From Burkholderiaceae bacterium (GTDB lineage Bacteria > Pseudomonadota > Gammaproteobacteria > Burkholderiales > Burkholderiaceae_C): a DNA stretch of 41,582 bases. This document shows, in pieces, positions 25,669 through 41,582 of this stretch. The stretch covers positions 1 to 41,582 of the forward strand of contig JAGOPK010000018.1 of NCBI GenBank assembly GCA_017992055.1, given 5' to 3'. How positions within the stretch are numbered: the first letter of the stretch is position 1; each line of letters begins with the position of its first letter. The position numbers and the translations under genes are program-made. The notes under the pieces were generated by a model. It ran no database searches and was not told where the DNA came from. It worked only from the letters and a program-made list of their open reading frames with translations.

Positions 25669-26066
25669 CGGGCGGCTTCCTTCATGCCGAAGACCTCGCA
25701 GCCGACCGCGTCGCAGTCGGGGTAGACATCGGGCTTCTCGGTGGCGACGCGGGCGGCGCGCACCTTGGGATGGGCCAGCATCGTGCGCAGCACGTCGTCG
25801 GCCAGTGTCTCTTGCAGGTGGATGTGGCCCTGCGATACGCGCTCGGCCACGCTGCGGCGGATGAAGTCGTAGTCCACCACCTCGTCCAGACGGTCGTGCT
25901 GCGGCGTGCTCTCGGCCAGCGGCACGTACAGGTCGACATTGATGACCACGCGCTGCTCGCCCTTCTTCTCGAAGTCGTGCACGCCGATGTTGATCCAGAC
26001 CTCGTAGTCGCGCAGGAACAGGCGCCGGCAGTCCATCAGGCTGGGGTTGCTGAGCAGGCTTTGCAT
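25665..26066 (-). CDS. folB: Dihydroneopterin aldolase
   Basis: The protein has 133 residues and converts dihydroneopterin to 6-hydroxymethyl-dihydropterin in folate synthesis. It shows the tunnelling-fold pattern: [42 protein letters not shown] (Glu86) and the catalytic Lys111 in [14 protein letters not shown] lies at a good distance before the first ATG. It is flanked by a pteridine reductase gene seven bases upstream and by ttcA overlapping downstream, so it belongs to a pterin/tRNA operon. Confidence 0.93.
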
Positions 26067-26073
26067 GGAGGCC

Positions 26074-26901
26074 TCAGGTTGGGGCGGTGGACTGGGCCTG
26101 GGCCAGGAACAGCACGTCGCGCGGCTGGCCCCACAGGTGCTGGCCCCCGTCGACCAGCAGGTTGTGGCCGGTGATGGCCGGCGATTGCAGCAGGTAGCGC
26201 ACGGCGCCGGCGATGTCTTCGGGCGTGGACGAGCGCGCCAGCGGCGTCATGCGGTGGGCGGCCTGGAACTCGTCGCCGCTCATCGGCCCCGACAGCAGGG
26301 TCACGCCCGGCGACACGGCATTGACCCGCAGCACCGGCGCCAGCGCCTGGGCCAGCATCACCGTGGCCGACTGCAGCGCCGCCTTGCTCAGCGTGTAGCT
26401 GAAGTAGTCGGGGTTGGGATTGGCCAGCTTCTGGTCCAGCAGATTGACCACCGCGCCGCGGGCCTGGCGCTGCACCAGGTGCTCGTGCAGGGCCTGCGCC
26501 AGCAGCACCGCCGGCGCGGTGTTGGCACGCCAGTGGCGCTCCATCGCCGCCAGCGTGAAGCCGGCGACATCGTCGTACTCGAACAGCGAGGCGTTGTTGA
26601 CCAGCGCATCCAGCCGGCCCAGGCGCAGCAGCACCGCCGGCACCAGGGCCTCCAGGTCGGCGCCATCGGCCAGGTTGGCGGCAAACACCTCGGCGCGTGC
26701 GCCGGCCTGCGCCAGCTCGGCCGCGGTGGCCTCGGCCTCGCTGCGCGAGCGGTGGCAGTGCAGGGCGATGTCCCAGCCGGCGGCGGCCAACTCCAGCGCG
26801 ATGGCGCGGCCGATGCGCCGCGCGCCGCCGGTGACCAGGGCCACGGGGCGACTGGCCGGGTGGGCAGCAGAAGGTGGGGCGGGGGCGCGGGGACTGGACA
26901 T
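26074..26901 (-). CDS. Pteridine reductase-type short-chain dehydrogenase (FolM/PTR1-like)
   Basis: The protein has 275 residues. It has the TGxxxRxG nucleotide motif (TGGARRIG, 24-31), which marks pteridine reductases, in place of the usual TGxxxGIG. Asp156, Tyr169 and Lys173 have exactly the spacing of the Asp-Tyr-Lys triad of Leishmania PTR1 (+13, +17). With folB directly downstream, it most likely reduces dihydropterins or dihydrofolate with NADPH. The start at MSSPRAP is chosen because the longer frame adds 53 basic, low-complexity residues. A general SDR role is the alternative. Confidence 0.9.
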   Translation of the reverse strand: MSSPRAPAPPSAAHPASRPVALVTGGARRIGRAIALELAAAGWDIALHCHRSRSEAEATAAELAQAGARAEVFAANLADGADLEALVPAVLLRLGRLDALVNNASLFEYDDVAGFTLAAMERHWRANTAPAVLLAQALHEHLVQRQARGAVVNLLDQKLANPNPDYFSYTLSKAALQSATVMLAQALAPVLRVNAVSPGVTLLSGPMSGDEFQAAHRMTPLARSSTPEDIAGAVRYLLQSPAITGHNLLVDGGQHLWGQPRDVLFLAQAQSTAPT

Positions 26902-27141
26902 GGCGGGCGGGAGGCGGGGGCGGCCGTGGCGGCGCTGGGCGCGATGCGGGCGCTGCGGCACCGGACTGCGGCGCCTGCTGGCGCAGGCCGCAGTGTATCG
27001 GCCAGGCCCGGTCCGCCGTTGCCGGCGCCGTGCCACCGGCCGTGTTGGGGATGGCGCCACGGCCCCGGCCGCGCAGAATCAAATCGTCACAACAAGGCCG
27101 CCGCGGCCATCGCCGCGGTGCCGGGCTTGGAGGGTCGTGCG

Positions 27142-27663
27142 ATGAAGCAGGCGCTGTGGCTGTGGTCCCTGGTTCTGGTCTTGCTCTTACCCGGGGCGGC
27201 CTCGGCCCTGACCCTCAGCGAGCATCTGCTGGGGCCGCTGGCGCCCGGCGCCACGCCGCTGGGCTCGCAGCTGCCGGCCGACGAGTTCCTCGATGTCTAC
27301 AGCTTCGAGCTGAGCCAGCCGGCCATCGCCATCGGCGTGATCGTGCCGCGGCAGTTGGACAACGAGCTGCTGCCCGGGCCCGAGTTCATCACCGCCATCG
27401 CCTTTGTCGCGCTGCTCGATGCGGCCGACCAGCCGCTGGCCGTGGATGGCGATCCCGTCGACGCCTATGTGGTGCCGGCGCTGCTGCCGGCCGGGGCCTA
27501 CAGGCTGGTGGTGCAGGGGGTGGCGGCCGGCCTGCTGGGCGGGCTGTACGACGGCGTGCTGCTGCTGCAGGCCCAGCCGGTGGCCGAGCCGGCCAGCGCC
27601 GCGCTGTGGCTGGCCGGCGGCCTGCTGCTGCTGTTGCGGGGCGCCCGGCGCAGCCGCCGATGA
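27142..27663 (+). CDS. Small secreted protein with degenerate PEP-CTERM tail
   Basis: The protein has 173 residues. A signal peptide (1-22, SLVLVLLLPGAASA) leads to a beta-rich domain of about 120 residues with acidic clusters and EFLDVYSFELSQPAIAIGVI. A C-terminal sorting-like tail follows: VAEPASAALWLAGG, a hydrophobic helix, then a basic end (RGARRSRR). Canonical exosortase tails begin V-PEP; here the motif is AEP (148-150), so recognition is uncertain. A GGAGGG ribosome site precedes the ATG. The stop overlaps the start of the giant glycosidase gene (ATGA), so the two are translationally coupled. I do not recognise the central domain. Confidence 0.75.
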   Translation: MKQALWLWSLVLVLLLPGAASALTLSEHLLGPLAPGATPLGSQLPADEFLDVYSFELSQPAIAIGVIVPRQLDNELLPGPEFITAIAFVALLDAADQPLAVDGDPVDAYVVPALLPAGAYRLVVQGVAAGLLGGLYDGVLLLQAQPVAEPASAALWLAGGLLLLLRGARRSRR

Positions 27664-30600
27664 ACCCGCTGCGGCGCGGCGTGCGCTGGCTGTGCGCCGC
27701 GCTGCTGGCGGTGCTGTCACCGGCCTGGGCCCTGCCGGCCGGCGTGCCGGCCGATGCGGCGGCCCTGCGTGCCGGCTTTGCCACGCCGCCGCGTGCCGCC
27801 GCGCCCATGCTGCGCTGGTGGTGGCCCGGCGCGGCGGTGCAGCCGGCCGAGCTGGAGCGCGAGCTGGCGCTGATCGCCGAGGCCGGCTTCTCCGGCGTCG
27901 AGATCCAGCCCACGGCCATCGGCCTGCCGCCGGATGCCGATGGCAGCGTGCACCGCGTCGGCACGGCCGCCTGGCTGGAGCAGCTGGCCGGCGTGCTGGC
28001 GGCGGCGCGGCGCCTGGGCCTGGTGGTCGACCTGACGCTGGGCTCGTCCTGGCCGCTGGCCAGCCCGGCCATCGCCGACCAGCATGGCCTGCGCGAGCTG
28101 GTGATGGGCGTGCAGACGCTGCAGGGCGGCCAGCTGTTCGACGGCCCGGTGCCGGCGCCGCCGCTGCCCGACTACCAGCGCCTGGGCGCCGACTGGCTGA
28201 AGCTGCCGGCCACCTTCGACGCCAGCCGCTTCCGCCGCGTGGCGGTGCTGGCGATGCGCGTGGATGCCGCGGCGCCGGCCGGCCTGCCGCAGCCGGGGCG
28301 CGATGCGGCCCTGCCGGCGCTGGCGCCGACGCTGTGGCTGGATGCCAGTGTCGTCGTCGACCACAGCGCCTTTGTCGAGGCCGATGGCCGGCTGCGCTGG
28401 CAGGTGCCCGACAACGGCGAGTGGCGGCTGTTTGCGCTGTACGAGGGCCCCTCGGGCCAGCAGCCGTTTTATGCCGCGATGCCCGGCCAGCCGCGGGTGC
28501 TGGACCCGCTGTCGCGCGAGGCCGTGCAGCGCTTTCTCGATGACTTTGCCGAGCCGCTGCGCGCGCGCCTGGGCACCGAGTTCGGCCACACGCTGCGGGC
28601 CTTGTTCATCGACAGCCTGGAGCTGCGCGCCGAGCTGTTCTGGACCCACGACTTCGCCGACGAGTTTGCGCGCCGCCGTGGCTACCGCATCGAGACCCTG
28701 CTGCCGCTGCTGTTCGTGCCCTATGCCGACGATGCCTATCTGCGCCAGGCCTATCCCGATGCCGGGCCGCGCTACGACATGCGCGAGTTCGGTGCCCGCG
28801 TGCGTGCCGACCACCGGCGCACGGTGTCCGAGCTGATGCAGGAGCGCTTCTTCACGCCGCTGCGCGACTGGGCCGCCGGTGCCGGCCTGCTGCTGCGCGT
28901 GCAGGCCCATGGCGGGCCGGTGGACGACCTGGCCGCCTACCGGCTGGCCGACATCGCCGAAACCGAATCGCTGTATGCAGGCGGCCAGCCGGCGTTTCTC
29001 AAGCGCGCCGCATCCACTGCCCACCAGCGTGGCCAGACCCTGGTGTCCAGCGAGGTCGGCGCGGTCAGGCTGCCGGCCGCGGTGTCGCTGGACCTGCTGC
29101 GCCGCCAGGCCCAGCTGCAGCTGGTCAGCGGCGTCAACCACCTGGTGCTGCATGGCTATCCCTACCGGCTGGATGCGGGCTTTGCCTGGCCGGGCTGGAT
29201 GCCCTTCGACTCGCCCTACCTGCCTGCCGTCGAGGCCATCGGCCGCTACGGCATGCGGCTGACCGAGCGCAGCCCGCTGTGGCGCGACCTGCCGCTGCTG
29301 CAGCAGTACCTGGCGCGGGCCCAGTGGTGGCTGCGCCATGGCCGGCCGCAGGCCGATCTGGCGGTGCTGTCGGCACCGGGCTTTGCGCCCGACCGCAACC
29401 AGGTGGCGCCGACGCTGGCGGCGCTGGAGGCCGCGGGCTATCTGTACGACCTGGTCGACGGCCCGTCCCTGCTCGATGCCGGCAACGGCATGGCCGCCGA
29501 TGGCCGGCTGCGCATCGGCGCCATGCACTATCCGGCGCTGCTGGTCGATGACCTGGCGGCGATCCCGCCGCCGCTGCTGCAGCGCCTGGCCGAGCTGGCG
29601 CTGCAAGGCCTGCGCCTGGTGTTCCGCGGCCAGCTGCCGCAGCGCAGCGCCGGCCTGGCCTTTTATCCGCAGGACGACCAGGCGGTGCGCCAGGTGATGG
29701 CGGCCCTGCTGGGCGGCGAAGGCCCGTCGCCGTCTGCCGCCGACGGCCAGCCGCGGCGTGGCCCGCTGGCGCTGCAGGTGCCGCAGGCGTCGCAGCTGGA
29801 GCGGGCGCTGCGCGAGCAGCTGGGCCTGGCGCCGTTGGTGGAGCTGGGCAGCGGCGCCGGCCAGTTGCTGAGCCAGCTGCGCCGCAGCGACGACGGCCGC
29901 CTGCGCCTGCTGCTGCTGAACACCGGCGAGGGCGAGGTCGATGCGCTGCTGCGCATCCGCGGCGCAGCCGGGCGAACGCCCGAGCTGTGGGATTTCTGGA
30001 CCGGCAGCATCCTGCCGGCCACGCTGTACCGCGACGACGGCGACGACCTGCTGCTGGCCGTGCACCTGCTGGCCGGCGGCCTGCTGGCGGTGGGCATCGA
30101 TGCCGACACGCCACCGGCCCTGCACCTGCAGTCCACCGACCAGCCGATCACGCTGCAGCGCCGTGCCGACGGGTCCATCGAGGCCAGTGCCGAGCAGCCC
30201 GGCCGCGTGGCCGTGACCCTGGCCGATGGCCAGCGCATCGTCGTCGACGTGCCGGGCAGCGCCGCGCCGCCGCTGGACCTGGCGCTGTGGGACCTGGCGC
30301 TGACCTGGGTCGATGCCCAGGGCGTGACGCGGCGGCGCTTCGAGTCGCGCCGGCCGCTGGCCGATCTGGTGGCCAGCGGCCGGCTGCCGCCGGACACGCC
30401 GGCCGAGATCGTCTACACCGGCTACATCGAGCCCAGCGCCGCCCAGCTGGCGCAGCTGGCCGCGGGCGCCAGCCTGGTGCTGGACCTGGGCGCGGTCGAC
30501 GAGACGGTGCAGGTGCGCGTCAACGGCCAGCTGCTGGCTATGGCGCCGGTCCATCCGTACCGGCTGCTGCTCGACGGGCGGCTGCGGCCGGGGCCGAATG

Positions 30601-32708
30601 CCATCGAACTGCGCCTGTCCAGCAGTGGCGGGCGCAGCGTGGGCCTGCGCGGGCCGGTGCAGATCCGCCAGCGCCAGGTGTTCACGCTGGCGCGGCCGCT
30701 GGCGGTGTCGGTGGTGGTCACGCCGCCGAACTTTCCCAACCACACGCACGAGCAGATGATGGCCGCGGTGGCCACCGCGGCCCAGGTCTCGCGCCATGTC
30801 AACTTCCAGTGGTTCTGGCGCACGCCGCCCAGCGCCAGCCAGCCCGAGGGCGGGGCCACGGTGGATTGCGACACCGTGCTGCCCTGGGTGCTGGAGGCGC
30901 GGCGCCTGGGCCTGGCGGTGACGCTGCAGTTCCAGACCTACTATGTGGAGCTGGGCGCGCCGGGCCAGCGCCCGGCCATCCGCATCGCCTCGCCGGTGCT
31001 GCCCTTCACCAGCGCCAGCTTCGGCGATGCGCGGCTGAAGGACCGCTACCTGGAGCAGATCGCCTGCCTGGCGGCGCTGCAGCCCGAGATCCTGGTGCTG
31101 GGCCCGGAGATGAACTTCGTCGTCACCTATGACTGGGCCGAGTTCAACCGTTTCCAGCAGGTGTATGCCGAGGCCTACCGCCTGGTCAAGCGCATCTCGC
31201 CGCGCACCCAGGTCGGCCTGTCCTGGCAGTACGACGGGCTGCGCATGTCGCTGCCGCTGGACGACTGGGGCTATGTGCGCCATGCCGGGCCGCAGGACTT
31301 CTATGCGCTGACCAGCTACTACGGCTTCTCGCAGGAGCGCCACCAGCAGTACCCGCTGGCCCAGGCCATTCCGGCCGACTACTACCACCCGATCAAGACC
31401 CTGCTGGGCGACAAGCCGGTGCTGTTTTCCGAGCTGGGCTGGTCGTCCTACTTCCCGCCCGGGGCCAGCGAGCAGTCGGCCTTTGTGCGCCGCGTGCCCG
31501 AGCTGATGGCCCAGGTGGGGCCGAGCCAGATCACCTGGGCCCTGCTGCACGATGTGCAGTACTTCGAGGGCGCCGGCCAGAGCCTCAATGCCAGCGGCCT
31601 GCGCCGCGCCGACGGTACGCCCAAGCCGGCCTGGGACGAGGTGCTGCGCCTGCGTGGCACCGGCCAGTTCAGCGGCGGCGCCAGCGGGCCGCAGGCGCGG
31701 CAGACGCTGCCGCTGGCCATCACCGTCGGGCCGGCGCAGTTTCCCCAGCGCTATTCGCAGGCGGCGGTGTTCGAGGCCATCGCCACCGCGGCCCAGCTGG
31801 CGCGCCACGTCAGCCTGCAGGTGGCCTGGGTCGACGAGGCCACCGGCAAGGTCTGGGACTGCGCCGCGCTGACGCCGGTGGTGGCCGAGGTGCGGCGCCT
31901 GGGCCTGGCGCTGACCCTGCAATGGAACACCTATGCGACGCGGCCGGTGCCCGGCGCACCGGCCGGCGCCCTGCCCGAGGTGCTGCTGTTCAACCCGGTG
32001 CGCAATGCCCGGCCCGGCATGGCCGATCCACCCAGCCTGGCCGAGCCGGCCATCCGCGAGGCCTGGCTGCGCGAGTTCCAGTGCATTGCCGCGCTGAAGC
32101 CCGAGGTGCTGGTGCTGGGGCCGGAGATCAACTTCGTGCATGCGCTGCGGCCGCTGGAATTTGCCTGGTTCCGCGAGGTCTACCGCGCCGCCCACCGGCT
32201 GGCCCGGCAGATCGCGCCGGCCACCCGCGTCGGCCTGTCCTACCAGTACAAGGTGCTGCGCGACGATTTGCGCGCCGGCCGCGACCTGGGCTGGATCGCC
32301 AGCCTGGGCGCGCAGGACTTCTTCGGCCTGACCATGTACTTCGCCGAGTCCGAGGCCTCGCTGCGCGACATCGCTGCGCCGCTGGACGTGCCCGACGACT
32401 ATTTCGCCGCGGCACGCCAGTGGCTGGGGCCGGACATGCCGGTGATCGTCACCGAGCTGGGCTGGAGCAGCGCCTTCCCCGGCGGCCTGGGCCACCAGGT
32501 GGCGTTCTTGAGCCGCTTGCCGGCGCTGATGGCGCCGCTGCGCCCGGCCCAGGTGACCTGGGCCATGCTGCACGACCTGGGCGACTACTTCCAGGGCGAG
32601 ATCGCGCCGCTCAACCTCAACGGCCTGCGCCTGAACGACGGCAGCGCCAAGCCGCTGTGGGCCCAGGCGCAGCGGCTGCGCGCGCTGGGCATCCTGGTCG
32701 ATCCCTGA
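27660..32708 (+). CDS. Giant secreted glycosidase: GH106-like region plus two tandem TIM-barrel modules
   Basis: The protein has 1682 residues. A signal peptide ends near residue 24 (AWA). Residues about 45-860 resemble GH106 alpha-L-rhamnosidases: MLRWWWPGA (50-58), LFIDSLELRAELFWTHDF with Asp318 and Glu321, the RVQAHGGP region, ADIAETESLY (Glu434, Glu436) and SSEVGAV (Glu465). A galactose-binding-like beta sandwich follows (about 870-1012). Two homologous TIM-barrel-like modules then occupy 1015-1335 and 1347-1682, each with LGPExNF (Glu1150; Glu1489) and ELGWSS (Glu1258; Glu1599), spaced 108 and 110 residues as expected for acid/base and nucleophile of clan GH-A. It should act outside the cytoplasm, possibly on the polymer made by the facing operon. 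Substrate assignment is inference. Confidence 0.8.
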   Translation: MNPLRRGVRWLCAALLAVLSPAWALPAGVPADAAALRAGFATPPRAAAPMLRWWWPGAAVQPAELERELALIAEAGFSGVEIQPTAIGLPPDADGSVHRVGTAAWLEQLAGVLAAARRLGLVVDLTLGSSWPLASPAIADQHGLRELVMGVQTLQGGQLFDGPVPAPPLPDYQRLGADWLKLPATFDASRFRRVAVLAMRVDAAAPAGLPQPGRDAALPALAPTLWLDASVVVDHSAFVEADGRLRWQVPDNGEWRLFALYEGPSGQQPFYAAMPGQPRVLDPLSREAVQRFLDDFAEPLRARLGTEFGHTLRALFIDSLELRAELFWTHDFADEFARRRGYRIETLLPLLFVPYADDAYLRQAYPDAGPRYDMREFGARVRADHRRTVSELMQERFFTPLRDWAAGAGLLLRVQAHGGPVDDLAAYRLADIAETESLYAGGQPAFLKRAASTAHQRGQTLVSSEVGAVRLPAAVSLDLLRRQAQLQLVSGVNHLVLHGYPYRLDAGFAWPGWMPFDSPYLPAVEAIGRYGMRLTERSPLWRDLPLLQQYLARAQWWLRHGRPQADLAVLSAPGFAPDRNQVAPTLAALEAAGYLYDLVDGPSLLDAGNGMAADGRLRIGAMHYPALLVDDLAAIPPPLLQRLAELALQGLRLVFRGQLPQRSAGLAFYPQDDQAVRQVMAALLGGEGPSPSAADGQPRRGPLALQVPQASQLERALREQLGLAPLVELGSGAGQLLSQLRRSDDGRLRLLLLNTGEGEVDALLRIRGAAGRTPELWDFWTGSILPATLYRDDGDDLLLAVHLLAGGLLAVGIDADTPPALHLQSTDQPITLQRRADGSIEASAEQPGRVAVTLADGQRIVVDVPGSAAPPLDLALWDLALTWVDAQGVTRRRFESRRPLADLVASGRLPPDTPAEIVYTGYIEPSAAQLAQLAAGASLVLDLGAVDETVQVRVNGQLLAMAPVHPYRLLLDGRLRPGPNAIELRLSSSGGRSVGLRGPVQIRQRQVFTLARPLAVSVVVTPPNFPNHTHEQMMAAVATAAQVSRHVNFQWFWRTPPSASQPEGGATVDCDTVLPWVLEARRLGLAVTLQFQTYYVELGAPGQRPAIRIASPVLPFTSASFGDARLKDRYLEQIACLAALQPEILVLGPEMNFVVTYDWAEFNRFQQVYAEAYRLVKRISPRTQVGLSWQYDGLRMSLPLDDWGYVRHAGPQDFYALTSYYGFSQERHQQYPLAQAIPADYYHPIKTLLGDKPVLFSELGWSSYFPPGASEQSAFVRRVPELMAQVGPSQITWALLHDVQYFEGAGQSLNASGLRRADGTPKPAWDEVLRLRGTGQFSGGASGPQARQTLPLAITVGPAQFPQRYSQAAVFEAIATAAQLARHVSLQVAWVDEATGKVWDCAALTPVVAEVRRLGLALTLQWNTYATRPVPGAPAGALPEVLLFNPVRNARPGMADPPSLAEPAIREAWLREFQCIAALKPEVLVLGPEINFVHALRPLEFAWFREVYRAAHRLARQIAPATRVGLSYQYKVLRDDLRAGRDLGWIASLGAQDFFGLTMYFAESEASLRDIAAPLDVPDDYFAAARQWLGPDMPVIVTELGWSSAFPGGLGHQVAFLSRLPALMAPLRPAQVTWAMLHDLGDYFQGEIAPLNLNGLRLNDGSAKPLWAQAQRLRALGILVDP

Positions 32709-32713
32709 GCGGC

Positions 32714-33850
32714 TCAGCGCGGCTGCTGGCCGGTGATGTGGATCTGGAACTTCTGCGCCTCGGCCGGCGTGTACTGGCTCAGAAAGACACCGGCCGCGCC
32801 GGCATAGCCGCAGGCGCCGTTGAACGAGCCGGCCGGCCCGGACACGCGCAGCGCCGGCTCGGCCTGCACCTGGGCCGGGTCCAGCGAGCTGATGCGGTAG
32901 AAGGCGCAGCCGTGGTAGGTGTCGCCGGGCTGCTTGGTCGGCGTGGCGACGACGAAGGCCTGGCCGTCGCGCTCGATCAGGTCGGTGCCCGAGAAGCCCG
33001 ACACGCCGCCGCCCAGCTTGCGCGCATCGGCATCGCGCAGCAGCGCGCCACGGTAGTCGCAGCGGCCGAGCTCATGGTCGCAGCGCAGCAGGGCGACCTC
33101 GCCGTTGTCCTTGCGCGTCGGGCAGGTCAGGGCCACGTACAGGCCCTCCTCGCGCGCCAGCATGCCGGGCTCGGTGAAGGCCGGGCACTTGGCCAGGGCC
33201 TTGTGCTGCTGGTCCAGGCGCATCTCCGGCGGGCCGATGGTGTTGTCGTTGTTCTTGTTGTAGACGCTGCCGACAAACAGCTTGCGCGGCTCGCTCCAGG
33301 GGCCGCGCGGCTCGGCCGCGGTGCGCAGCTCGATCCAGCCATGCTCGAACAGCGGCACCGAGTCGGGCCCCTTGCCGTCGTAGACGCGCAGATAGCGGTG
33401 GCTCAGCAGCTTCCAGCGCGTGGCCTCGCTGGCCCAGGGATCGCGCTGCAGCCGCGACACCTCGTATTCCCAGCGCGCGGCCAGCTTGTTGTGCGGCCAG
33501 GGCAGGGCCTGGTCGCGTGCGGCGTTCACCAGGCCCTGGTCCTCCCAGGTCTTGCCGCCATCGCCCGAGACCGCCAGCCGGGTGTTGATCGAATTGAACT
33601 TGATGCCATGGGTCTTGTCGGCGACGACGGTGGAATAGCTCATCCACAGCCGGCCGCGGCCATCGTCGGCAAACGAGGGGTCGAAGATGCCCACCGGCGC
33701 GTCGGCTTCGGCCAGGCGCTGCACGGCCAGGCGCTTGCCACCTTCGGCCGCGGCCGGTGCGGGTGGCAGCAACAGGGCCGAGCAGGCCAGCACCAGGATG
33801 GCCAGGCGGCCCGGGCGTGCAGGGGCAGGGCGGGGAGCGGGAGGAGGCAT
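32714..33850 (-). CDS. Secreted sialidase-like beta-propeller protein
   Basis: The protein has 378 residues. A leader of hydrophobic residues (17-31) ends in APAAA, a likely signal peptidase I site; a lipobox reading at LAC (Cys23) is less likely. The mature protein has one clear Asp-box (SGDGGKTW, 95-102), an IFDPSFADDGRGRLWMSYS strand pair and several other propeller-like strands, and about eight cysteines that could form disulfides. The FRIP arginine motif of true sialidases is not visible, so sialic acid specificity is unlikely. AAGGAG precedes the start by 11 bases. It is last in the exopolysaccharide operon, downstream of the flippase, and its stop is five bases from the giant glycosidase stop. 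Confidence 0.75.
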   Translation of the reverse strand: MPPPAPRPAPARPGRLAILVLACSALLLPPAPAAAEGGKRLAVQRLAEADAPVGIFDPSFADDGRGRLWMSYSTVVADKTHGIKFNSINTRLAVSGDGGKTWEDQGLVNAARDQALPWPHNKLAARWEYEVSRLQRDPWASEATRWKLLSHRYLRVYDGKGPDSVPLFEHGWIELRTAAEPRGPWSEPRKLFVGSVYNKNNDNTIGPPEMRLDQQHKALAKCPAFTEPGMLAREEGLYVALTCPTRKDNGEVALLRCDHELGRCDYRGALLRDADARKLGGGVSGFSGTDLIERDGQAFVVATPTKQPGDTYHGCAFYRISSLDPAQVQAEPALRVSGPAGSFNGACGYAGAAGVFLSQYTPAEAQKFQIHITGQQPR

Positions 33851-33880: not shown

Positions 33881-33910
33881 TCGAACAGGGTCGATCAGGA
33901 TCGGTCAGGG
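33881..33910 (+). repeat. Three 10-base tandem repeats between flippase and propeller genes
   Basis: The plus strand reads TCGAACAGGG, TCGATCAGGA, TCGGTCAGGG head to tail, preceded by a weaker copy (GTCAATCGGA). The array covers the last bases of the flippase gene and most of the 54-base spacer before the propeller gene. It may be replication slippage or a binding site. No hairpin terminator was seen here. Confidence 0.5.
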
Positions 33911-35581
33911 CCGGTTGGGATGCACAGGCCCGCTGGACCGTTCGGCCTGGGCCATGCCCGGCTGCAGGCGCAGCCGCGGACACAGGCGCCGCAGCAACGA
34001 CACACGCTCGTCGCGGCGCAGTCCCAGGAACCACAGGCCGGCCACGGCGCAGGCGGCGGTGGTCAGCAGTTGAAGGATCGCCGCAGTGGCTCCGGAGTTC
34101 CCTGGCAGCAGGCTGCGCACCAGCCAGGTGCCGACGGCGGCCAGCGCCAGGCCGCCCGCCAGCAGGCGCAGTTCCTGGCTGCGCACGGCCAGCAGGCCGT
34201 GGTGCCGGCGCAGCTGGTGCAGGCGCAGCAGGTTCAGCGCCAGCAAGGTGCTGGCGCTGGCCAGGGCCGCACCCAGCGGGCCCCAGCGAGGGATCAGCCA
34301 CAGGTTGAGCGCCAGGTTCAGCGCTGCGGCCAGCGCGGCATTGCGCGTCTCCAGGCCCTGGCGGCCGCTCATCACCAGCGCAAAGCCGACGATGCTGAAC
34401 CAGGCGTGCACGAACTGGCCCAGGGCCAGCACGCGCAGCGCATCGGCGGCCGGCACGAAGGCCGGGCCCAGCAGCAGCAGCACCGCGTCGGCCTGCAGCA
34501 GCAGCACCGCCAGCAGCGGCGTGCCCAGCAGCACCAGGCCACGCAGGGCCTGGGCCAGCGGCGCGGCCAGGCCCGGTGCGGCCGCGCCCGCGGCCACCGC
34601 GGCGGCGGCCAGCGCAAAGGCGTTGGCGCTGGCGGCGTTGAAGGCGATGCTGAGCATGTCGAAGGCGATCACCGCCTGGGTGCAGGCGCGGTACAGGCCG
34701 GCCGCCTCGGCCGGCGCCAGCCAGCCCAGCAGCAGCAGGTCGGCCCAGCCGATGGCCAGGTAGAGCAGGCTGTTGGCCCACACCGGCACGGCATAGGCCC
34801 ACAGCCGGCGGCGCCAGTGCGGATCGGCCGCTGCCGGCGCGGTTGCCGGGCCGGTCTCGCGCGCGGCGGGCGGCCTGCTGCGGTCCTGCCGCATCGCCTG
34901 GCGCAGCAGCAGCGCCGCGATCAGGGCCGCGACCAGGCCCGACAGCGCAAAGGCCCAGGCCGCCAGCAGCGGCGCCGGCCAGGGTCCGGCCGGGCTGCCG
35001 GCCAGGGCCCGGCCGGCCAGCAGCAGCAGCAGCAGGCTGAGCTGGGGCGCCAGATGGCGTGCGATCACATAGTGCTGCAGCCGGCCGTAACCGCGGGCGA
35101 TGTTGCCCAGCAGCTCGCACAGCGCGAAGAACGGCACCGCCAGCATGGCCGGGCCGATCAGCGCGGCCAGCGCCGGCTTGCCGAACAGCTGCGTGGCCAG
35201 CGGCTCGGCCAGCCAGGCGCCGGCGCCGGCCAGCAGCACACCGGCGGCGGCGCAGGGCAGGACGGTGGCGCGCAGCAGGCCCGCCAGCGCCGCCTGGTCG
35301 CCGCGCTGGCGGGCCGGGGCGATGAAGCGCAGCGCCGCCACATGCAGGCCCAGCACGGCCAGCTTGTCGCCGATCTTGGCCAGCGCCAGCGCCAGCGCGA
35401 ACAGGCCGTAGCCGGGCAGGCCCAGCCAGCGTGCGGCCAGCCATTCGTTGAGCAGCAGCAGCACACCGCCGACGGCGGTGCCGGCCAGCGTCAGTGCGGC
35501 GCCGGTGCCGATCGAGCCCGCACTGGCCGCGGTGCTGGCACGGTCAGCCGGCGTGTCCGGGCTCGGTGCCGGGCTGGCCAT
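33905..35581 (-). CDS. Wzx-like oligosaccharide flippase
   Basis: The protein has 558 residues and 12-14 membrane helices. It belongs to the MATE/MOP-type polysaccharide exporter superfamily: an opening helix with GTAVGGVLLLLNEWLAARWLG, GYGLFALALALAKIG, and paired later helices including GFALVMSGRQGLETRNAALA. It would flip the undecaprenyl-linked repeat unit to the periplasm. A charged, Pro/Ala-rich cytoplasmic loop near residues 225-252 is longer than usual. The start lies 38 bases inside the upstream glycosyltransferase gene, so the two are coupled. It precedes the secreted propeller gene. Confidence 0.85.
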   Translation of the reverse strand: MASPAPSPDTPADRASTAASAGSIGTGAALTLAGTAVGGVLLLLNEWLAARWLGLPGYGLFALALALAKIGDKLAVLGLHVAALRFIAPARQRGDQAALAGLLRATVLPCAAAGVLLAGAGAWLAEPLATQLFGKPALAALIGPAMLAVPFFALCELLGNIARGYGRLQHYVIARHLAPQLSLLLLLLAGRALAGSPAGPWPAPLLAAWAFALSGLVAALIAALLLRQAMRQDRSRPPAARETGPATAPAAADPHWRRRLWAYAVPVWANSLLYLAIGWADLLLLGWLAPAEAAGLYRACTQAVIAFDMLSIAFNAASANAFALAAAAVAAGAAAPGLAAPLAQALRGLVLLGTPLLAVLLLQADAVLLLLGPAFVPAADALRVLALGQFVHAWFSIVGFALVMSGRQGLETRNAALAAALNLALNLWLIPRWGPLGAALASASTLLALNLLRLHQLRRHHGLLAVRSQELRLLAGGLALAAVGTWLVRSLLPGNSGATAAILQLLTTAACAVAGLWFLGLRRDERVSLLRRLCPRLRLQPGMAQAERSSGPVHPNRP

Positions 35582-36629
35582 ACAGGGCCACGGCGTCGTG
35601 CACGCCCTTGAAGAAATGCCAGGAGATCACGCCGCGGTACAGGTCGCGGTGCACCCAGCGCGCCAGCGCCGGCTGCTGCTCGGCGCGGCGCAGCAGCGGC
35701 AGCCACAGGCCGGGCAGGGTCAGGCGGTTGAACAGCAGGCTGCGCAGCAGGTAGCGCAGCACCAGCAGCAGCGGGTTGCGGTCGGCGCCGATCAGGAAGC
35801 GGCGGCCGGGGCCGGTGAGCGCACGCCAGTGGTCGCCCAGCGTGTCCCAGCCCAGCACGTGGTAGCGCACGACGATCTCGGGCGTGGGCACGCGCTCGCG
35901 GAACTCGCCCCAGTTCAGCCCGCGCTGGTGGGCGCGCTTCATCGCCCCGTCCAGCGTCTCCACATGGTGGTGGTGGCCCAGGCCGTCCATCGCCAGATAG
36001 AGCTGCAGGCCGTGCTGGTGCAGGCGGTAGCCCAGTTCGGCATCCTCGTGGGCGGCGGCGCCGGCGCGGCCGCGGCGGGCGTGGAACATGCCGTGCTGCA
36101 GCATGAAGTCGCGCTTGAAGCTGACGTTGCAGGCCCAGAACAGGTAGTAGGGCAGCTGCTGCAGGCCCTCGAAGCTGTCGAAGCGGAACGGGTCCCAGGT
36201 GCGCAGGAACACGCTCTGCGTCAGCGCCGGCGACTGCAGCACGCGGCCCAGCACCGCGGCACCGGGTTCCGGATGGGCCCGGTGCTGGGCCAGGTGGGCG
36301 GCCAGGGCCTGTGGCGCCAGCAGGATGTCGTCGGCGATCAGCAGCACCAGCGGCGCGGCGGCCTCGGCGATGCCGCGGTTCTGCGTATGGCCGGGGCCGG
36401 CATTGGCATGGCTCATCCAGCGGTAGCGGCAACGCATCCAGGCCGCCGCCTCGGCCAGCACGCGCTGCGTGTCGTCGGGCGAGCCGTCGTCGACGACGAT
36501 GACCTCGAACTCGTGGTCGGCCAGGGTCTGGGCATTCAGCCGGCGCAGCGTCTCGGGAATGATCTCGGCGCGGCCATAGGTGGCCATGACCACGCTGATG
36601 CGTGGCGGCGTGGAGGCGGGCGGGGTCAT
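35544..36629 (-). CDS. Family 2 glycosyltransferase of the exopolysaccharide operon
   Basis: The protein has 361 residues. The GT-A domain opens RISVVMATYGRAEIIPETL and holds VVDDGS (45-50), the DxD-like IADDI (98-102) and HEDAELGYRLHQHG, in which the Glu-Asp pair is the usual catalytic base region. The C-terminal 120 residues are helical and amphipathic. It probably adds one sugar to the lipid-linked repeat unit on the cytoplasmic side. GGAG lies nine bases before the ATG, and the ATG overlaps the Wzy-like gene stop by four bases. Donor and acceptor cannot be deduced. Confidence 0.9.
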   Translation of the reverse strand: MTPPASTPPRISVVMATYGRAEIIPETLRRLNAQTLADHEFEVIVVDDGSPDDTQRVLAEAAAWMRCRYRWMSHANAGPGHTQNRGIAEAAAPLVLLIADDILLAPQALAAHLAQHRAHPEPGAAVLGRVLQSPALTQSVFLRTWDPFRFDSFEGLQQLPYYLFWACNVSFKRDFMLQHGMFHARRGRAGAAAHEDAELGYRLHQHGLQLYLAMDGLGHHHHVETLDGAMKRAHQRGLNWGEFRERVPTPEIVVRYHVLGWDTLGDHWRALTGPGRRFLIGADRNPLLLVLRYLLRSLLFNRLTLPGLWLPLLRRAEQQPALARWVHRDLYRGVISWHFFKGVHDAVALYGQPGTEPGHAG

Positions 36630-38167
36630 CGTGGTGTCTCCGGGGCGGGCGTATCCTGGGCTTCGAGCAGCCGGGGCAGGGCCACGCTGGCGGCCAGCAC
36701 ATGCCACAGCATCATGAACACCACCGGCTCGCGGTACAGCGGATTGGTCAGGCCGTCCAGCAGATAGGCCAGCAGGGCGGCGGCAAAGGCCAGGGCCAGC
36801 TGCGCCGGCAGGCCACCGGGCCGGCGCGCGCAGCGCAGCAGTCGCGCCAGCGCCAGCAAGACCAGCGAGAAGAAGGCCAGCACGCCGAACAGGCCCTGCT
36901 CGGCGCCGATCCACAGCAGCACGTTGTGCACCGGCAGCTCCAGCGCGCTGTTGAAGTTCATCGTGCGCAGCGCCTCCACATAGTTGCCGGCGCCAACGCC
37001 GAACAGCGGATGCTCGGCCCAGATGCTCAGCGCCACCTGCCATTGCTCGAAGCGGGTGGTCATGATCTCGGCCGGCGCCGAGCTGAAGCGCTCGACGATC
37101 TTGCCGGCGGCCCAGGCCGCCAGGCCCAGCAGCGGCAGCGCCGACACCGCCAGCGCCGGCAGCACGCTGCGGTTGCGCCAGCGCAGCTGCAGCCAGCCGG
37201 CCAGGGCCAGCAGCATGATCAGCGCCGACAGCCAGGCCGAGCGCGAATAGGTCAGCACCAGGGCCACCAGGGCCGCCAGCACCAGCGGCAGCAGCCACAG
37301 CCGCTGCTTCCAGGGCCGGGCATCGTCGAGCAGGCGGATCAGCGGCAGCGGCAGCAGCATGGCCATGTACAGGCCCAGCGCATGGCTGTCATAGGCCGTG
37401 CCCTCGGCGCGCCGTGCCGACTCGATGCCCGGCACCTCGTACTGCGACTGGCGGTCGGCCGAGCCGGCGCCTTTGTCGCGGGCCAGGCCCTGCAGCAGGC
37501 CGAACTGGCTTTGCAGCAGCGCCAGCAGCACCTCCAGCACGATGGCCGCATAGATGGCGCGCAGCAGCCAGCGTGCGCTGCGCTCATCGAGATGCCGCGA
37601 GACATAGAAGTAGACGAACAGGTGCTTGGCCAGGTACAGCGTGGAAAACCAGCCCAGCGCCGGCACCAGCGTGCCCCACAGCGAGGCCAGATAGGCTGCC
37701 AGCACCAGCAGCACCGGCAGGTCGGCCGGCTGCAGCGCCGCGGCGCGGCCGGCACCATGGGCCGGCCGGCCGGTGTGCGGCGCGGTCAGCGTGCGCACCA
37801 GCCAGGACAGGGCCAGGCCGGCGATGGCCAGGTCCACCGGCCCCAGGCCCAGCGCGCCGGAATAGACGACATTGCCGTACTGGTCGTCCGAGACCACGTC
37901 GAAGAAGAACCAGCGCTCCAGGCTGGACAGCGGGATGCAGAACATCAGCGCCGGCAGCAGCCACTGCGCATAGCGCCCGGCCGTGGCCATGGCCAGCGCG
38001 GCCAGCGCGATGGCCACGATGCCGACCACGAACCAGCGGGTCTCGGCCTGCCACAGCTGCGACACGCCGAGCGCGAACAGCGCGCCCAGCAGGGCCGCGG
38101 CCCAGGGCGACAGCCGTGGCGGCAGCTCGTGGGCCGGCGTCGGGGAGGGCGTGGACGGCGTGTCCAT
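36626..38167 (-). CDS. Wzy-like polysaccharide polymerase (O-antigen ligase/polymerase family)
   Basis: The protein has 513 residues and about 11-12 membrane helices. The family features are a large periplasmic loop in the middle and the segment VLTYSRSAWLSALIMLLALAG followed by HPLFGVGAGNYVEALR and VHNVLLWIGAEQGL, all typical of the Wzy_C/O-antigen ligase domain. It likely joins repeat units into a polymer in the periplasm. A ligase role cannot be excluded from sequence, but the flippase and Wzz neighbours favour polymerase. The start is four bases after the stop of the small membrane protein. Confidence 0.87.
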   Translation of the reverse strand: MDTPSTPSPTPAHELPPRLSPWAAALLGALFALGVSQLWQAETRWFVVGIVAIALAALAMATAGRYAQWLLPALMFCIPLSSLERWFFFDVVSDDQYGNVVYSGALGLGPVDLAIAGLALSWLVRTLTAPHTGRPAHGAGRAAALQPADLPVLLVLAAYLASLWGTLVPALGWFSTLYLAKHLFVYFYVSRHLDERSARWLLRAIYAAIVLEVLLALLQSQFGLLQGLARDKGAGSADRQSQYEVPGIESARRAEGTAYDSHALGLYMAMLLPLPLIRLLDDARPWKQRLWLLPLVLAALVALVLTYSRSAWLSALIMLLALAGWLQLRWRNRSVLPALAVSALPLLGLAAWAAGKIVERFSSAPAEIMTTRFEQWQVALSIWAEHPLFGVGAGNYVEALRTMNFNSALELPVHNVLLWIGAEQGLFGVLAFFSLVLLALARLLRCARRPGGLPAQLALAFAAALLAYLLDGLTNPLYREPVVFMMLWHVLAASVALPRLLEAQDTPAPETPR

Positions 38168-38171
38168 GGCG

Positions 38172-38378
38172 CTACAGGCCCAGCTTGCGCAGCAGGTAGC
38201 TGGCGCTGGCGCCGATCAGCGCGCCGGCCAGCGCGACCAGCAGCAGGCGCAGCAGGGCCGGCAGATGGCGGCGGCGTTGCAGCGGCAGGGCATGCACCGC
38301 GGCCAGGCCGGCACGCGGCGGCGCCTGCGGCGGTGGCATGTCGACCGACGGGATGTCGGGCTCAGCCGGCATGGGCAT
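38172..38378 (-). CDS. 68-residue single-span membrane protein between Wzz and Wzy genes
   Basis: This is a small gene overlapping the end of the Wzz-like gene by 17 bases and ending four bases before the polymerase start. The product begins MPMPAEPDIPSVDMPPP, a proline-rich soluble part, then a basic stretch (QRRRHLP) and one membrane helix (about 41-62, LLRLLLVALAGALIGASASY) ending in LLRKLGL. The positive residues before the helix would place the N-terminus in the cytoplasm. A second ATG at codon 14 is possible. No family is recognised. Its tight packing in the operon supports a real, coupled gene. Confidence 0.6.
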   Translation of the reverse strand: MPMPAEPDIPSVDMPPPQAPPRAGLAAVHALPLQRRRHLPALLRLLLVALAGALIGASASYLLRKLGL

Positions 38379-39804
38379 GGGGCTCTGCCTGGGCATCGCT
38401 GGCCGCGGGCGCGCTGGCCGCCGCACGCCGCGCGCGCCAGCCGCGCGAGGCGAAGAACACGCGCACGTTGAAGTAGCTGAGCAGGTAGACCAGGCCGATG
38501 CCGACCAGCAGGCCCAGCAGGCCGGCCAGGGCCACGTGGTAGACCTTGATCGGGCCGATGGGCTGCGAGGGCGCGCGCGCCGCATGCAGCAGGTTGACCT
38601 CGGAAAGCACGGCGCCGGCGCGCACGCTGGCCTCGGCCGCGGCATCGGTGTATTGCACATAGTCGCGCTCGGCCGCGGCCAGGCGCATGCGCTGCGCATC
38701 GAGCTGGGTCTGCACGTCGGGCAGCTGGCGCAGGCGCTGCTGCAGGTCTTGCAGCGAGGCCTGCAGCGCCGAGCGCTTGGCCAGCAGGCCGTTCAGCTCG
38801 ACCTCGTCGAACACGCGCTCGCTGGCCAGGCGACGGAAATCGTCCGGCGAGATCGGCAGGCCGCCGGGCTCGGCCGGCGCTGCGGCCGGCGCCGCGGTGG
38901 CCGGTCCGACGGCCGCCAGTCCGCTGGCCAGCTGGCGCTTCTGCGCCTGCTTCTGCGCCACCTGGCTCAGGCGTTCGCGGGCGCGGGCGATGTCGGCGTC
39001 GAGCTTGCTCAGGTCCAGCGCCAGCGCCGATTCACGCTCGGCGCTGCGCTCGATCTCGGTGCTCAGCGACACCAGCTGGTGGCGCCGCAGCAGCGACTCG
39101 ACCGACTGGCGCAGCGCGGCGATCTCGCCGGCCTTGGTCTGCAGCAGCGCGTTCAGCTGGTCGAGCTTGGCCGCGCCGGGCACACGCTCGCTCTGGCGCA
39201 GCTTGTCGATCAGCATCTCGGCAATGCGGTTGGCGATGGCCGCGGCGCGTTCGGGCGACTTGTCGCGCACGCTCAGCGCAAACACGTAGGAATCGCGGTT
39301 GCGCAGCCGCACGTTGTTGCGCAGATCGCCGATCGCGCCTTCGACCGGATCCTGCTCGATCAGCCGGCCGTGCTTGAGCACGGTCCACAGGTCGCCCAGC
39401 TCGTCGCGCAGCCAGTCCTTGGTCTGCGCAAACCACACCCGCCACCAGGGGCCGCTGTACTGGCGCTCGACGCGGGTGAGGTCGAACTCGGCAACGATGC
39501 GCGCCATGATGGCCTCGCTGCCCACCAGTTCCTGCAGCGTCTGGCTGATGACCTTGAACGGCGGCGCCGGCACCGCCGAGCCGAAGGACTGGGCCTCGGG
39601 CGCTCGCAGGCGGATGATCTCCTGCGGCCGGTATTCGATCGCCACCTGGGCCTCGTAGCGCTCGCTGTAGACATAGGTCAGGCCCAGGGCACTGAGCGCG
39701 GCGGCGAGCACGAACACCACGACGAAGGACAGGTTGCGCTGCAGCGGCAGGAAGAAGCCGCTGGGCGCCCGCCAGTCCGGCGAGGGGGGCTGCACCAGGT
39801 TCAT
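38362..39804 (-). CDS. Wzz/GumC-type polysaccharide chain-length protein (no kinase domain)
   Basis: The protein has 480 residues. Membrane helices lie near residues 22-43 and 418-440, enclosing a long periplasmic region. That region holds a Wzz-type N-terminal domain (YEAQVAIEYRPQEIIRL), coiled-coil arms (about 205-300) and a second coiled coil (about 330-400). The C-terminus is short, so there is no BY-kinase domain; a separate kinase may be encoded outside the window. It would set polymer length or support export. The start giving MNLVQPPSP has GAGG six bases upstream; two earlier ATGs lack it. Confidence 0.88.
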   Translation of the reverse strand: MNLVQPPSPDWRAPSGFFLPLQRNLSFVVVFVLAAALSALGLTYVYSERYEAQVAIEYRPQEIIRLRAPEAQSFGSAVPAPPFKVISQTLQELVGSEAIMARIVAEFDLTRVERQYSGPWWRVWFAQTKDWLRDELGDLWTVLKHGRLIEQDPVEGAIGDLRNNVRLRNRDSYVFALSVRDKSPERAAAIANRIAEMLIDKLRQSERVPGAAKLDQLNALLQTKAGEIAALRQSVESLLRRHQLVSLSTEIERSAERESALALDLSKLDADIARARERLSQVAQKQAQKRQLASGLAAVGPATAAPAAAPAEPGGLPISPDDFRRLASERVFDEVELNGLLAKRSALQASLQDLQQRLRQLPDVQTQLDAQRMRLAAAERDYVQYTDAAAEASVRAGAVLSEVNLLHAARAPSQPIGPIKVYHVALAGLLGLLVGIGLVYLLSYFNVRVFFASRGWRARRAAASAPAASDAQAEPHAHAG

Positions 39805-39858
39805 GCGCAGCCTCGGCGACATCTGCATCCGGCAGCAGCGCAACGGGGGTGGTCCACG

Positions 39859-40776
39859 TCAGAAGGCTCCATGCCGCGTCAGCACCAGCACCACGGTGCG
39901 CAGCAGGATGCGCAGGTCGAGTGCGACCGAGCGCGTGCGCACGTACTCCAGATCCCAGGCGATGGTGTCGCGGAAGTTCAGGTTGCCACGGCCGTTGATC
40001 TGTGCCAAGCCCGTGATGCCGGGTCGCACGGCGAACTTGAGCATCTCGTGCGGCTGGTAGTTGACCAGCAGGCCGGGCAGTTCGGGCCGCGGGCCGACCA
40101 GGGCCATGTCACCGGTGAGCACGCACCAGAAGTTGGGCAGCTCGTCCAGCGTGCTGCGGCGCAGCCAGCGGCCGGCGCGGGTGATGCGGGGATCGTCGTC
40201 GCGCTTGAAGCGGTCGGCCAGGAAGTGCTCGCGGTCGCCGTAGCGGTAGCGGTACAGGTGCGGAAAGCGCTGGGCGCTGTCGGCATGCATGGTGCGGAAC
40301 TTGACGAAGCCGAAGTCCTGCGGCACCAGGTAGGGCGCCTGGTCGCCGGCCTGGCCGGGCGCCGGCTCGGCCAGCTGCAGCCCGGGGTGCTGGCGCACCG
40401 CGGCGGCCGGCAGCACCCGGCTGCGCGCCACGCGGCGCTGGCGGAACAGCACCGGCCCCGGCGAGTCCAGGCGGATCCAGGCGGCCTCCAGCAGCATCAG
40501 CGGCAGCAGCAGCAGCAGGGCCAGCGCGGCGGCGATGATCTCGGCACCGCGGTAGGCGATGCGCTGCCAGGCCGGCTCGGCCGACGGCGGCACCAGGGCC
40601 AGCGGCACGGCCCAGACGCGGCCGGGCTGGCGCTCGCCGCTGTCGCGGCTGCGGCGTGCGGCCTGGCGCCGGTCCGGTGCGGCGAAGGGCTGGTGGCTGT
40701 GGCGGCGGTCGGCCTGGCGGCGCTCGCCCCCGTCCCAGGCCCGGCCGGTGGCGGCCAGTTGCAGATCGGGGCTCAT
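39859..40776 (-). CDS. Initiating phosphoglycosyl transferase (bacterial sugar transferase family)
   Basis: The protein has 305 residues. A basic cytoplasmic N-terminus (1-70, RR-rich) is followed by one membrane-inserted hydrophobic helix (about 79-98), as in monotopic enzymes of the PglC/WbaP-core type. The catalytic domain has VKFRTM (158-163), the Asp211-Glu212 pair in STLDELPNFW, GPRPELP and RPGITGLAQINGRG. It starts repeat-unit synthesis by putting a sugar phosphate on undecaprenyl phosphate. About 30 extra Pro/Ala/Gln-rich residues (121-152) separate LFRQRRVARSR from VKFRTM; most relatives have only a short connection there. Its start overlaps the preceding glycosyltransferase gene by four bases. 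Confidence 0.92.
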   Translation of the reverse strand: MSPDLQLAATGRAWDGGERRQADRRHSHQPFAAPDRRQAARRSRDSGERQPGRVWAVPLALVPPSAEPAWQRIAYRGAEIIAAALALLLLLPLMLLEAAWIRLDSPGPVLFRQRRVARSRVLPAAAVRQHPGLQLAEPAPGQAGDQAPYLVPQDFGFVKFRTMHADSAQRFPHLYRYRYGDREHFLADRFKRDDDPRITRAGRWLRRSTLDELPNFWCVLTGDMALVGPRPELPGLLVNYQPHEMLKFAVRPGITGLAQINGRGNLNFRDTIAWDLEYVRTRSVALDLRILLRTVVLVLTRHGAF

Positions 40777-41582
40777 CGCGTCGGGTCCGTCCAGGCCTGA
40801 GCCTGAGCCTGGCCATGAACCGCCGCTGCCGGCCGCGGCCCGTCGGGGCTGCGCAGCTGGTTCAGCCCCAGCTGCAGCAGCGCACGCAGCCCCAGCGCCA
40901 GGCCGGCCAGCAGGGCGCGTGGATCGGCCCAGCCGGCGCAGCGGTGCAGCCGGTAGAAGCGCCAGGCACCGAGGTGGAACATCCAGATGCGCGACGGCGC
41001 GACGCGGCGGCCCGGCCGGTTCTGCTCGTGGTGCACGATCTGCGCCTGCGGCACGCAGGCGATGCCGACGCCGGCGCGGCGCACCCGCGCGCACCAGTCG
41101 GTGTCGACCCAGTAGCCGCGGTAGCCCAGGTCCCAGGGGCCGACGCGGTCGGCATCGAACAGCCGGCGCCGCAGCAGCATGCAGGCGGCCGAGACCTGTT
41201 CGACCGCATGCGGCTGCAGCGAGTCCAGCCGGTCGCTCATCAGGTAGCGGCGCGAGAACGGATTGCCGGGCCAGCAGCGCGTCAGCAGGCTGCGCCGGCC
41301 GAACAGGCCGCTCATCGCCGACGGCAGGGCACGCGCGGTCTGCTGCACGCTGCCGTCGCTGTTGAAGGTGCGTGGCGCGACCACGCCGACCTCGGCATGC
41401 TGCTGCAGGTGCTGGCACAGCCGCATCACCGCGTCGGGCGCCAGCTCGGTGTCGTTGTCCAGCACCAGCACCCACTCGCCGCGGGCCAGGGCCACGCCCT
41501 GGTTGACGCCGGCGGCATGGCCGGCGTTGTGCGCATTGCGCTGCAGGCGCAGCCGCTCGGCCGGCCAGGCCTGGGCCAGCAG
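40773..41582 (-). CDS. Family 2 glycosyltransferase, 5' end missing at window edge
   Basis: The visible 269 residues lack the start. They enter at NAHNAGHAAGVNQG, typical of rhamnosyltransferase-like GT2 enzymes, then the nucleotide-sugar site VLVLDNDTEL. After these come the GxxVxxACMLLRRRLF-type region and YWVDTDWCARVRRAGVG, with the conserved acidic/DW segment, then a basic helical C-terminus ending in low-complexity Ala/Gln. The stop overlaps the start of the phosphoglycosyl transferase gene (ATGA). It is the most upstream gene seen of the exopolysaccharide operon, which continues to the right. Confidence 0.9.
   Translation of the reverse strand: MLAQAWPAERLRLQRNAHNAGHAAGVNQGVALARGEWVLVLDNDTELAPDAVMRLCQHLQQHAEVGVVAPRTFNSDGSVQQTARALPSAMSGLFGRRSLLTRCWPGNPFSRRYLMSDRLDSLQPHAVEQVSAACMLLRRRLFDADRVGPWDLGYRGYWVDTDWCARVRRAGVGIACVPQAQIVHHEQNRPGRRVAPSRIWMFHLGAWRFYRLHRCAGWADPRALLAGLALGLRALLQLGLNQLRSPDGPRPAAAVHGQAQAQAWTDPTR

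Follow-up and report, generated by a model that had tools for sequence, protein, structure and literature searches.

We analysed a stretch of 41,582 nucleotides from a Burkholderiaceae bacterium (NCBI GenBank assembly GCA_017992055.1, contig JAGOPK010000018.1), hereafter called the window. One of its genes, at 27660..32708 on the plus strand, encodes 1682 residues plus a stop and joins a GH106 module with a jelly roll to two barrels; it adjoins a Wzx/Wzy locus for exopolysaccharide (EPS) biosynthesis. The frame contains zero internal stops, and the third-position G+C was at least 0.88 in all 21 full 80-codon blocks, both module junctions included. Because this value is even over both junctions, no frameshift join is suggested, and the single chain proposed in an initial annotation of this DNA holds. 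An assembly or frameshift join was rejected on the even codon-position G+C and because the fusion gene lies inside a single 83-kb contig. Residues 1-24 (27660..27731, +), read by eye from the translation, resemble a signal peptide, with a basic start, a hydrophobic core and AWA followed by LP, which suggests that the protein may be exported.

The GH106 alpha-L-rhamnosidase catalytic module lies at 27783..30014 (+), where PF17132 matched in two pieces (27783-28271 and 28314-30014; E-value 5e-48, 164.6 bits against a gathering cut-off of 29). This result places the region in the GH106 family, as the initial annotation had proposed. The NCBIfam model AlphaRhamBT4145 also matched the fusion (E = 1.5e-60), far under the cut-off of that equivalog. 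The solved relatives of the module are RHA-P (PDB 6q2f, E = 1.2e-22) and BT0986 (5mqm, and 5mwk, a form with Gln at the general acid), and aligned pieces of 6q2f and 5mqm run from residue 31 to about residue 990 of the fusion. The roles of the BT0986 residues (acid E461, base E593 and the calcium ligands) were taken from excerpts of PMC6828813. In the alignment, Glu321 (28620..28622, +) is the equivalent of the general acid Glu461, and Glu465 (29052..29054, +) that of the general base Glu593. Four of the five calcium ligands (D458, S459, E538, E561 and E593), not the full set, are kept: D458, S459 and E561 correspond to Asp318, Ser319 and Glu436, whereas Gln415 takes the place of Glu538, and Gln is also found there in all three same-family relatives aligned. 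Because calcium ligands vary inside GH106, where the Ram106B enzymes are described in the same excerpts as being without most of them, Gln415 does not exclude the module from this family. With its acid, base and most calcium residues kept, the module is probably an active alpha-L-rhamnosidase.

The jelly-roll (beta-sandwich) match covers residues 928-987 (30441..30620, +; NF045579, E = 4e-7, 30.1 bits, under the cut-off of 50) and aligns with residues 1040-1097 of 6q2f. Because this is the C-terminal part of a GH106 enzyme, the jelly roll belongs to the GH106 part, and we rejected the earlier view of the beta sandwich as a unit of its own.

The remainder of the fusion is formed by two barrels. 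Barrel 1 (residues about 1012-1335; 30693..31664, +) is a clan GH-A-like (beta/alpha)8 module, and barrel 2 (residues about 1350-1675; 31707..32684, +) is its tandem duplicate, with 41% identity between them (E = 4e-77). AlphaFold predicted the (beta/alpha)8 fold for both, with a predicted local distance difference test score of 90 for barrel 1 and of 87.1 for barrel 2 (predicted template-modelling score 0.88). Two barrels had been foreseen, and the outcome that would have spoken against them, no barrel in the models, did not occur; their limits (1015-1335 and 1347-1682) are replaced by the cores given here. Glu1150 (31107..31109, +) and Glu1489 (32124..32126, +) are the strand-4 acid/base candidates, and Glu1258 (31431..31433, +) and Glu1599 (32454..32456, +) the strand-7 nucleophile candidates, according to model and alignment. 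In the predicted models these four residues, the same as those named before, occupy strands 4 and 7, the positions typical of clan GH-A, and from this placement the two Glu of each pair probably face each other. Both barrels also retain the strand-6 Tyr and the strand-8 Trp of the family. Thus, of the three enzymes envisaged in the initial annotation, three candidate active sites stand, but they represent two enzyme types, since the barrels are duplicates by both identity and tree.

We compared the barrels with Pfam and NCBIfam and found no match in either library; they are tandem duplicates of one kind that lies outside both. The GH53 model PF07745 gave no match to the single barrels at E = 1 and none to the tandem at E = 10, and it should be noted that the HMMER filters drop most matches above E = 0.1, the tandem test included. 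Three relatives (L011, L012 and L014) matched PF07745 with E-values of 0.0083, 1.6e-4 and 5.1e-5, all under the cut-off. Membership of GH53, GH39, GH5 or another Pfam family was rejected because no Pfam match existed. The best solved-structure profile match of the barrels was the Bacteroides GH53 endo-beta-1,4-galactanase (PDB 6gpa/6gp5; E = 5.9e-12 to 6gpa), and both Glu columns of the 13-row barrel profile fall on the GNE and CEIG motifs of 6gpa. However, the window barrels differ from GH53 in lacking a PF07745 match and in having Gly-Pro-Glu instead of Gly-Asn-Glu at strand 4.

The barrel profile also matched PslG, the GH39 enzyme of the Pseudomonas aeruginosa Psl locus (PDB 5bx9, 9g17), with an E-value of 3e-4. 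This is the sole sequence-level tie to GH39, and the barrels do not fall into the GH39 sequence family, as they have no Pfam match. In the Foldseek searches, PslG occupied rows 1-3 for barrel 2 (template-modelling score 0.60, root-mean-square deviation about 7) and came fifth and sixth for barrel 1. It was not among the 50 VIA-align rows listed, which were mostly GH1 and GH5_18; such an absence excludes nothing. Because identity to PslG is 15-17% and the template-modelling score is about 0.6, the kinship is at clan level only. By profile and fold searches, then, the barrels sit near GH53 and the GH39 enzyme PslG.

In clan GH-A, Asn usually precedes the strand-4 Glu. Among 13 aligned barrel rows, this position held Thr in eight, Pro in two (both window barrels), Asn in two and Ile in one. 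Strand 4 carried Glu in 12 rows and Asp in one, and strand 7 carried Glu in ten, Gly in two and Gln in one. Two barrel relatives from Chloroflexi metagenome-assembled genomes (MAGs; L022 and L023) have Gly for the strand-7 Glu. One alternative is that the barrels serve chiefly to bind the polymer or as a scaffold that holds it, with the GH106 part alone being catalytic. The unusual Pro before the strand-4 Glu would agree with this, as would the loss of catalytic residues in L022/L023 and in a Rhizobacter relative (L008; Asp and Gln). However, both window barrels keep both Glu together with the strand-6 Tyr and strand-8 Trp, and we consider a scaffold role quite improbable.

We next give the spread of the barrels, as obtained with a barrel-alignment search (own genome included in each count). 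Barrel-bearing genomes numbered 6 of 369 in the class and 1 of 21 in the genus (both at E = 1e-5), 13 of 399 in the family (E = 1e-8), and 3 of 398 in the phylum and 2 of 10 in the genus of the Rhizobacter MAG G687 (both at E = 1e-10). The genome draws overlap among the order, class, phylum and family searches, and the candidates scored per genome were at most six for the class, five for the phylum, five for the family and two in one other search. A single-barrel query found 1 of 300 genomes of the order at E = 1e-5; this single-sequence search missed genome G264, which the phylum and family searches found. A pattern scan of genome contigs matched 31 stretches, of which five were barrel relatives, and no barrel was found in the viral contigs and plasmids searched.

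The barrel tree was built from 15 rows. Its input omitted L012-L015, L023, L032, L036, L038, L056 and L059-L063, and a length filter removed L057 and L058. Support is good for six of the 12 inner branches; the branch leading to L055 is long, and the composition of L020 and L021 is unusual. The two window barrels group together (support 100/98) and are then joined by a Rhizobacter barrel adjacent to wzy (L007; 95/93). The own genome has a third barrel, encoded immediately right of the window by a lipoprotein-like gene with one barrel (C19:47771-48958; L018:6778-7962); five other genomes of the family carry single genes of the same branch. The simplest history is that a barrel of an EPS locus was duplicated and then fused to a GH106 gene in the lineage of the window.

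The EPS genes of the window follow the fusion on the minus strand. They encode a Wzx-like flippase (33905..35581; PF01943, E = 6e-14), a GT2 glycosyltransferase (35544..36650; PF00535, E = 6e-18, in a long frame 35544-37298 whose start is not settled), a Wzy-type polymerase/ligase (36626..38167; PF04932, E = 1.3e-20) and a chain-length determinant (GNVR) protein (38362..39843; PF13807, E = 2.4e-4, under the cut-off, with further sub-threshold matches to TIGR03007, TIGR01005 and TIGR03017). The Wzy-type protein also resembles the exosortase-linked O-glycosylation ligase TIGR03097 (E = 2.9e-14, under the curated cut-off). Then come a polyprenyl glycosylphosphotransferase, the initiating transferase, in a long frame at 39859..41475 (PF02397, E = 1.8e-50), whose start is not settled because the next GT2 frame overlaps it on the upstream side, and that second GT2 glycosyltransferase (40773..41495; PF00535, E = 1.1e-6), which continues past the start of the frame. 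Beyond the glycosylphosphotransferase, the locus holds rmlD (PF04321, E = 3.5e-66, over the cut-off; TIGR01214, E = 1.8e-63, 214.3 bits, slightly below the cut-off of 224.05). Because rmlC is present elsewhere in the genome, rhamnose can be made. To the left of the fusion lie, among others, genes with FolB, PP-loop and short-chain dehydrogenase domains.

A homologous EPS locus was found in the Rhizobacter MAG, on contig JANXWV010000097.1 (G687:C48); its pieces L019 and L027 belong to the same contig, because they overlap with equal sequence. Identities to the proteins of the locus described above were 37% for Wzx, 56% for the GT2 enzyme, 39% for Wzy, 43% for the chain-length protein, 52% for the glycosylphosphotransferase, 50% for the second GT2 enzyme, 59% for RmlD and 55% for the lipoprotein-like barrel. 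Both loci contain three barrels, lipoprotein-like copies counted, and the Rhizobacter barrels fall in the same larger branch of the tree. Unlike the modules of the fusion, they are separate genes: one abuts wzy (Wzy_C), and a barrel-propeller gene abuts wzx on the same strand. The latter (G687:C48, about 25180-27216; L008:1381-3405) joins its barrel to a PD40 propeller and has Asp and Gln in place of the two catalytic Glu; its product is possibly a dead-enzyme sugar-binding protein of the EPS locus. The initial annotation had asked whether the fusion recurs beside Wzx/Wzy operons. A Wzx/Wzy locus with rmlD does adjoin the fusion here, and separate barrel genes stand beside wzy and wzx in this one other genome, but the fusion itself was not found again in the genomes searched. 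The EPS link concerns the window and Rhizobacter loci and not the barrel family at large.

We also searched for GH106 near barrels. A tblastn search of the GH106 part against 33 loci found no GH106 (L012, L014, L015, L023 and L038 were not in this search, and L013 and L036 were covered via L050 and L049), and PF17132 matched in none of four other barrel-bearing genomes. Within the genus, 2 of 21 genomes carry GH106. The contig of G409 ends within its GH106 gene (L025), which leaves the C-terminus of that protein out of view.

Based on these results, we propose that the cell exports the fusion as a glycoside hydrolase with three active sites and uses it specifically on the EPS that the adjoining Wzx/Wzy locus makes, a reading whose chances we put a little above even. 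The GH106 module would remove alpha-L-rhamnose from the EPS with the assistance of calcium, and the two clan GH-A barrels would cut beta-linked backbone bonds by double displacement, so that the joined modules could combine rhamnose removal and backbone cleavage on the same chain. It may serve to trim the polymer, to rid the periplasm of stray chains or to remodel the matrix. The earlier idea of exolytic and endolytic action on a rhamnose polymer is plausible, with the limit that endo and exo action cannot be read from sequence.

The best functional model for this is PslG, with a debranching rhamnosidase added. Excerpts of PMC11912335 describe PslG as a retaining endo-beta-glucosidase encoded in the cluster of the rhamnose-containing EPS Psl and likely periplasmic when mature. 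The fusion adjoins an EPS biosynthesis locus, and both cases have a (beta/alpha)8 hydrolase in or beside an EPS cluster, with rhamnose in Psl and probably in the EPS here. However, PslG as solved consists of one barrel protein and has no GH106 module.

Several observations weigh against dedication to the neighbouring EPS. The fusion lies outside the EPS operon, because it is on the opposite strand and convergent with those genes, and RmlC is widespread, with 11 of 14 control genomes carrying it. The GH106-barrel fusion was found in one genome only, with none in the other genomes and loci searched, and the Rhizobacter genome (87% complete) gave no GH106 match. The strand-7 Glu is lost in 3 of the 13 family rows, including the wzx-adjacent Rhizobacter copy. 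Around L020 (a Gammaproteobacteria MAG) and L021, in the sister branch, no EPS gene was seen in the five flanking proteins scanned and no match to the EPS genes of the window locus was obtained; the flanks of the lipoprotein-like branch in G264, G392, G564, G627 and G685 likewise gave no match to those genes. Finally, the other GH106 gene of the own genome (G000:C10:18000-37000, L026) and that of G587 (G587:C3:44000-63000, L024) have as neighbours a frame that combines GH1 and amidohydrolase domains, a major facilitator superfamily (MFS) sugar transporter and a flavin adenine dinucleotide (FAD) hydroxylase, which suggests rhamnoside use, perhaps of aromatic rhamnosides such as flavonoid rutinosides.

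These GH106 neighbourhoods would agree with a nutritional enzyme that acts on a foreign rhamnose glycan (a pectin side chain, a plant glycoside or the EPS of another microbe), its location at the EPS locus being incidental. The substrate suggested for BT0986 in the PMC6828813 excerpts is an oligosaccharide from pectin rhamnogalacturonan II, and the GH53 galactanase as best profile match, the place of the fusion outside the operon and the L020/L021 relatives without EPS context could be explained in the same way. However, L007, which the tree places nearest to the window barrels, directly adjoins wzy in the homologous EPS locus, and no uptake transporter was present among the flanking genes scanned. 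We judge a nutritional role unlikely, though it deserves attention.

A further-reaching form of the EPS proposal is that the barrels represent a clan GH-A family that has yet to be described and that includes a branch settled in Wzx/Wzy loci. Here two copies plus a debranching rhamnosidase would make a self-directed depolymerase with three active sites, whose modules mirror the bonds in the repeat unit of its own EPS. Because L020/L021 and the lipoprotein-like branch lie outside such loci, its probability is lowered, and we regard it as tentative and rather doubtful.

The gene upstream of the fusion (27142..27663, +) encodes a PEP-CTERM-like protein of 173 residues, which matched NF038126 with E = 4.7e-7 (30.2 bits, cut-off 50) and no Pfam family. 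Its stop overlaps the fusion start (ATGA), and therefore the two genes may be translated together. From this overlap, the NF038126 match and the TIGR03097 match of the Wzy-type protein, the fusion might process glycans on this surface protein and not free EPS. However, both matches are under the curated cut-offs, and the PEP-CTERM-like protein matched nothing in the Rhizobacter pieces L019 and L027, a comparison with little power for proteins of this type. We think this explanation very improbable.

Enzymes built from multiple hydrolase modules are generally known, as is the kind of chemistry of each module; what is new lies in how the modules are combined, in where the gene stands and in barrels that neither Pfam nor NCBIfam covers. 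The solved GH106 chains (1105 and 1151 residues) are too short for two further barrels. The fusion occurred in no other locus examined, and none was found in the literature searched, in line with the initial annotation, which knew of no such architecture. That search covered few subscription journals, and no GH106 fusion or GH106 with exopolysaccharide was described in the titles and abstract openings listed. Hydrolases encoded in EPS loci, PslG among them, serve to dissolve biofilm and to read out polymer structure. The sugar of the fused rhamnosidase fits a biosynthesis gene of the locus, which leads to a testable prediction on the bonds of an unknown polymer, and the fusion would offer a natural design for an enzyme cutting several bonds of one chain.

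Some minor observations concern the surroundings of the barrels. Between the fusion and wzx, a secreted-looking protein of 378 residues (32714-33850, -) shows weak likeness to DUF4185, with no useful family match and no solved-structure relative; it is possibly another polysaccharide-acting protein. A B12-binding radical SAM gene (L018:2823-4658) lies between rmlD and the lipoprotein-like barrel, and a radical-SAM-looking frame, read by eye, stands beside the equivalent barrel in G687 (L039), the two not being alike at E = 1e-6. In G466, a complete-looking genome, two distant barrel relatives lie 16 kb apart (G466:C1:5722000-5760000; L064, L065), and the stretches around them contain GT2-like and glycosylphosphotransferase-like genes, so this region is possibly another EPS locus with barrels.

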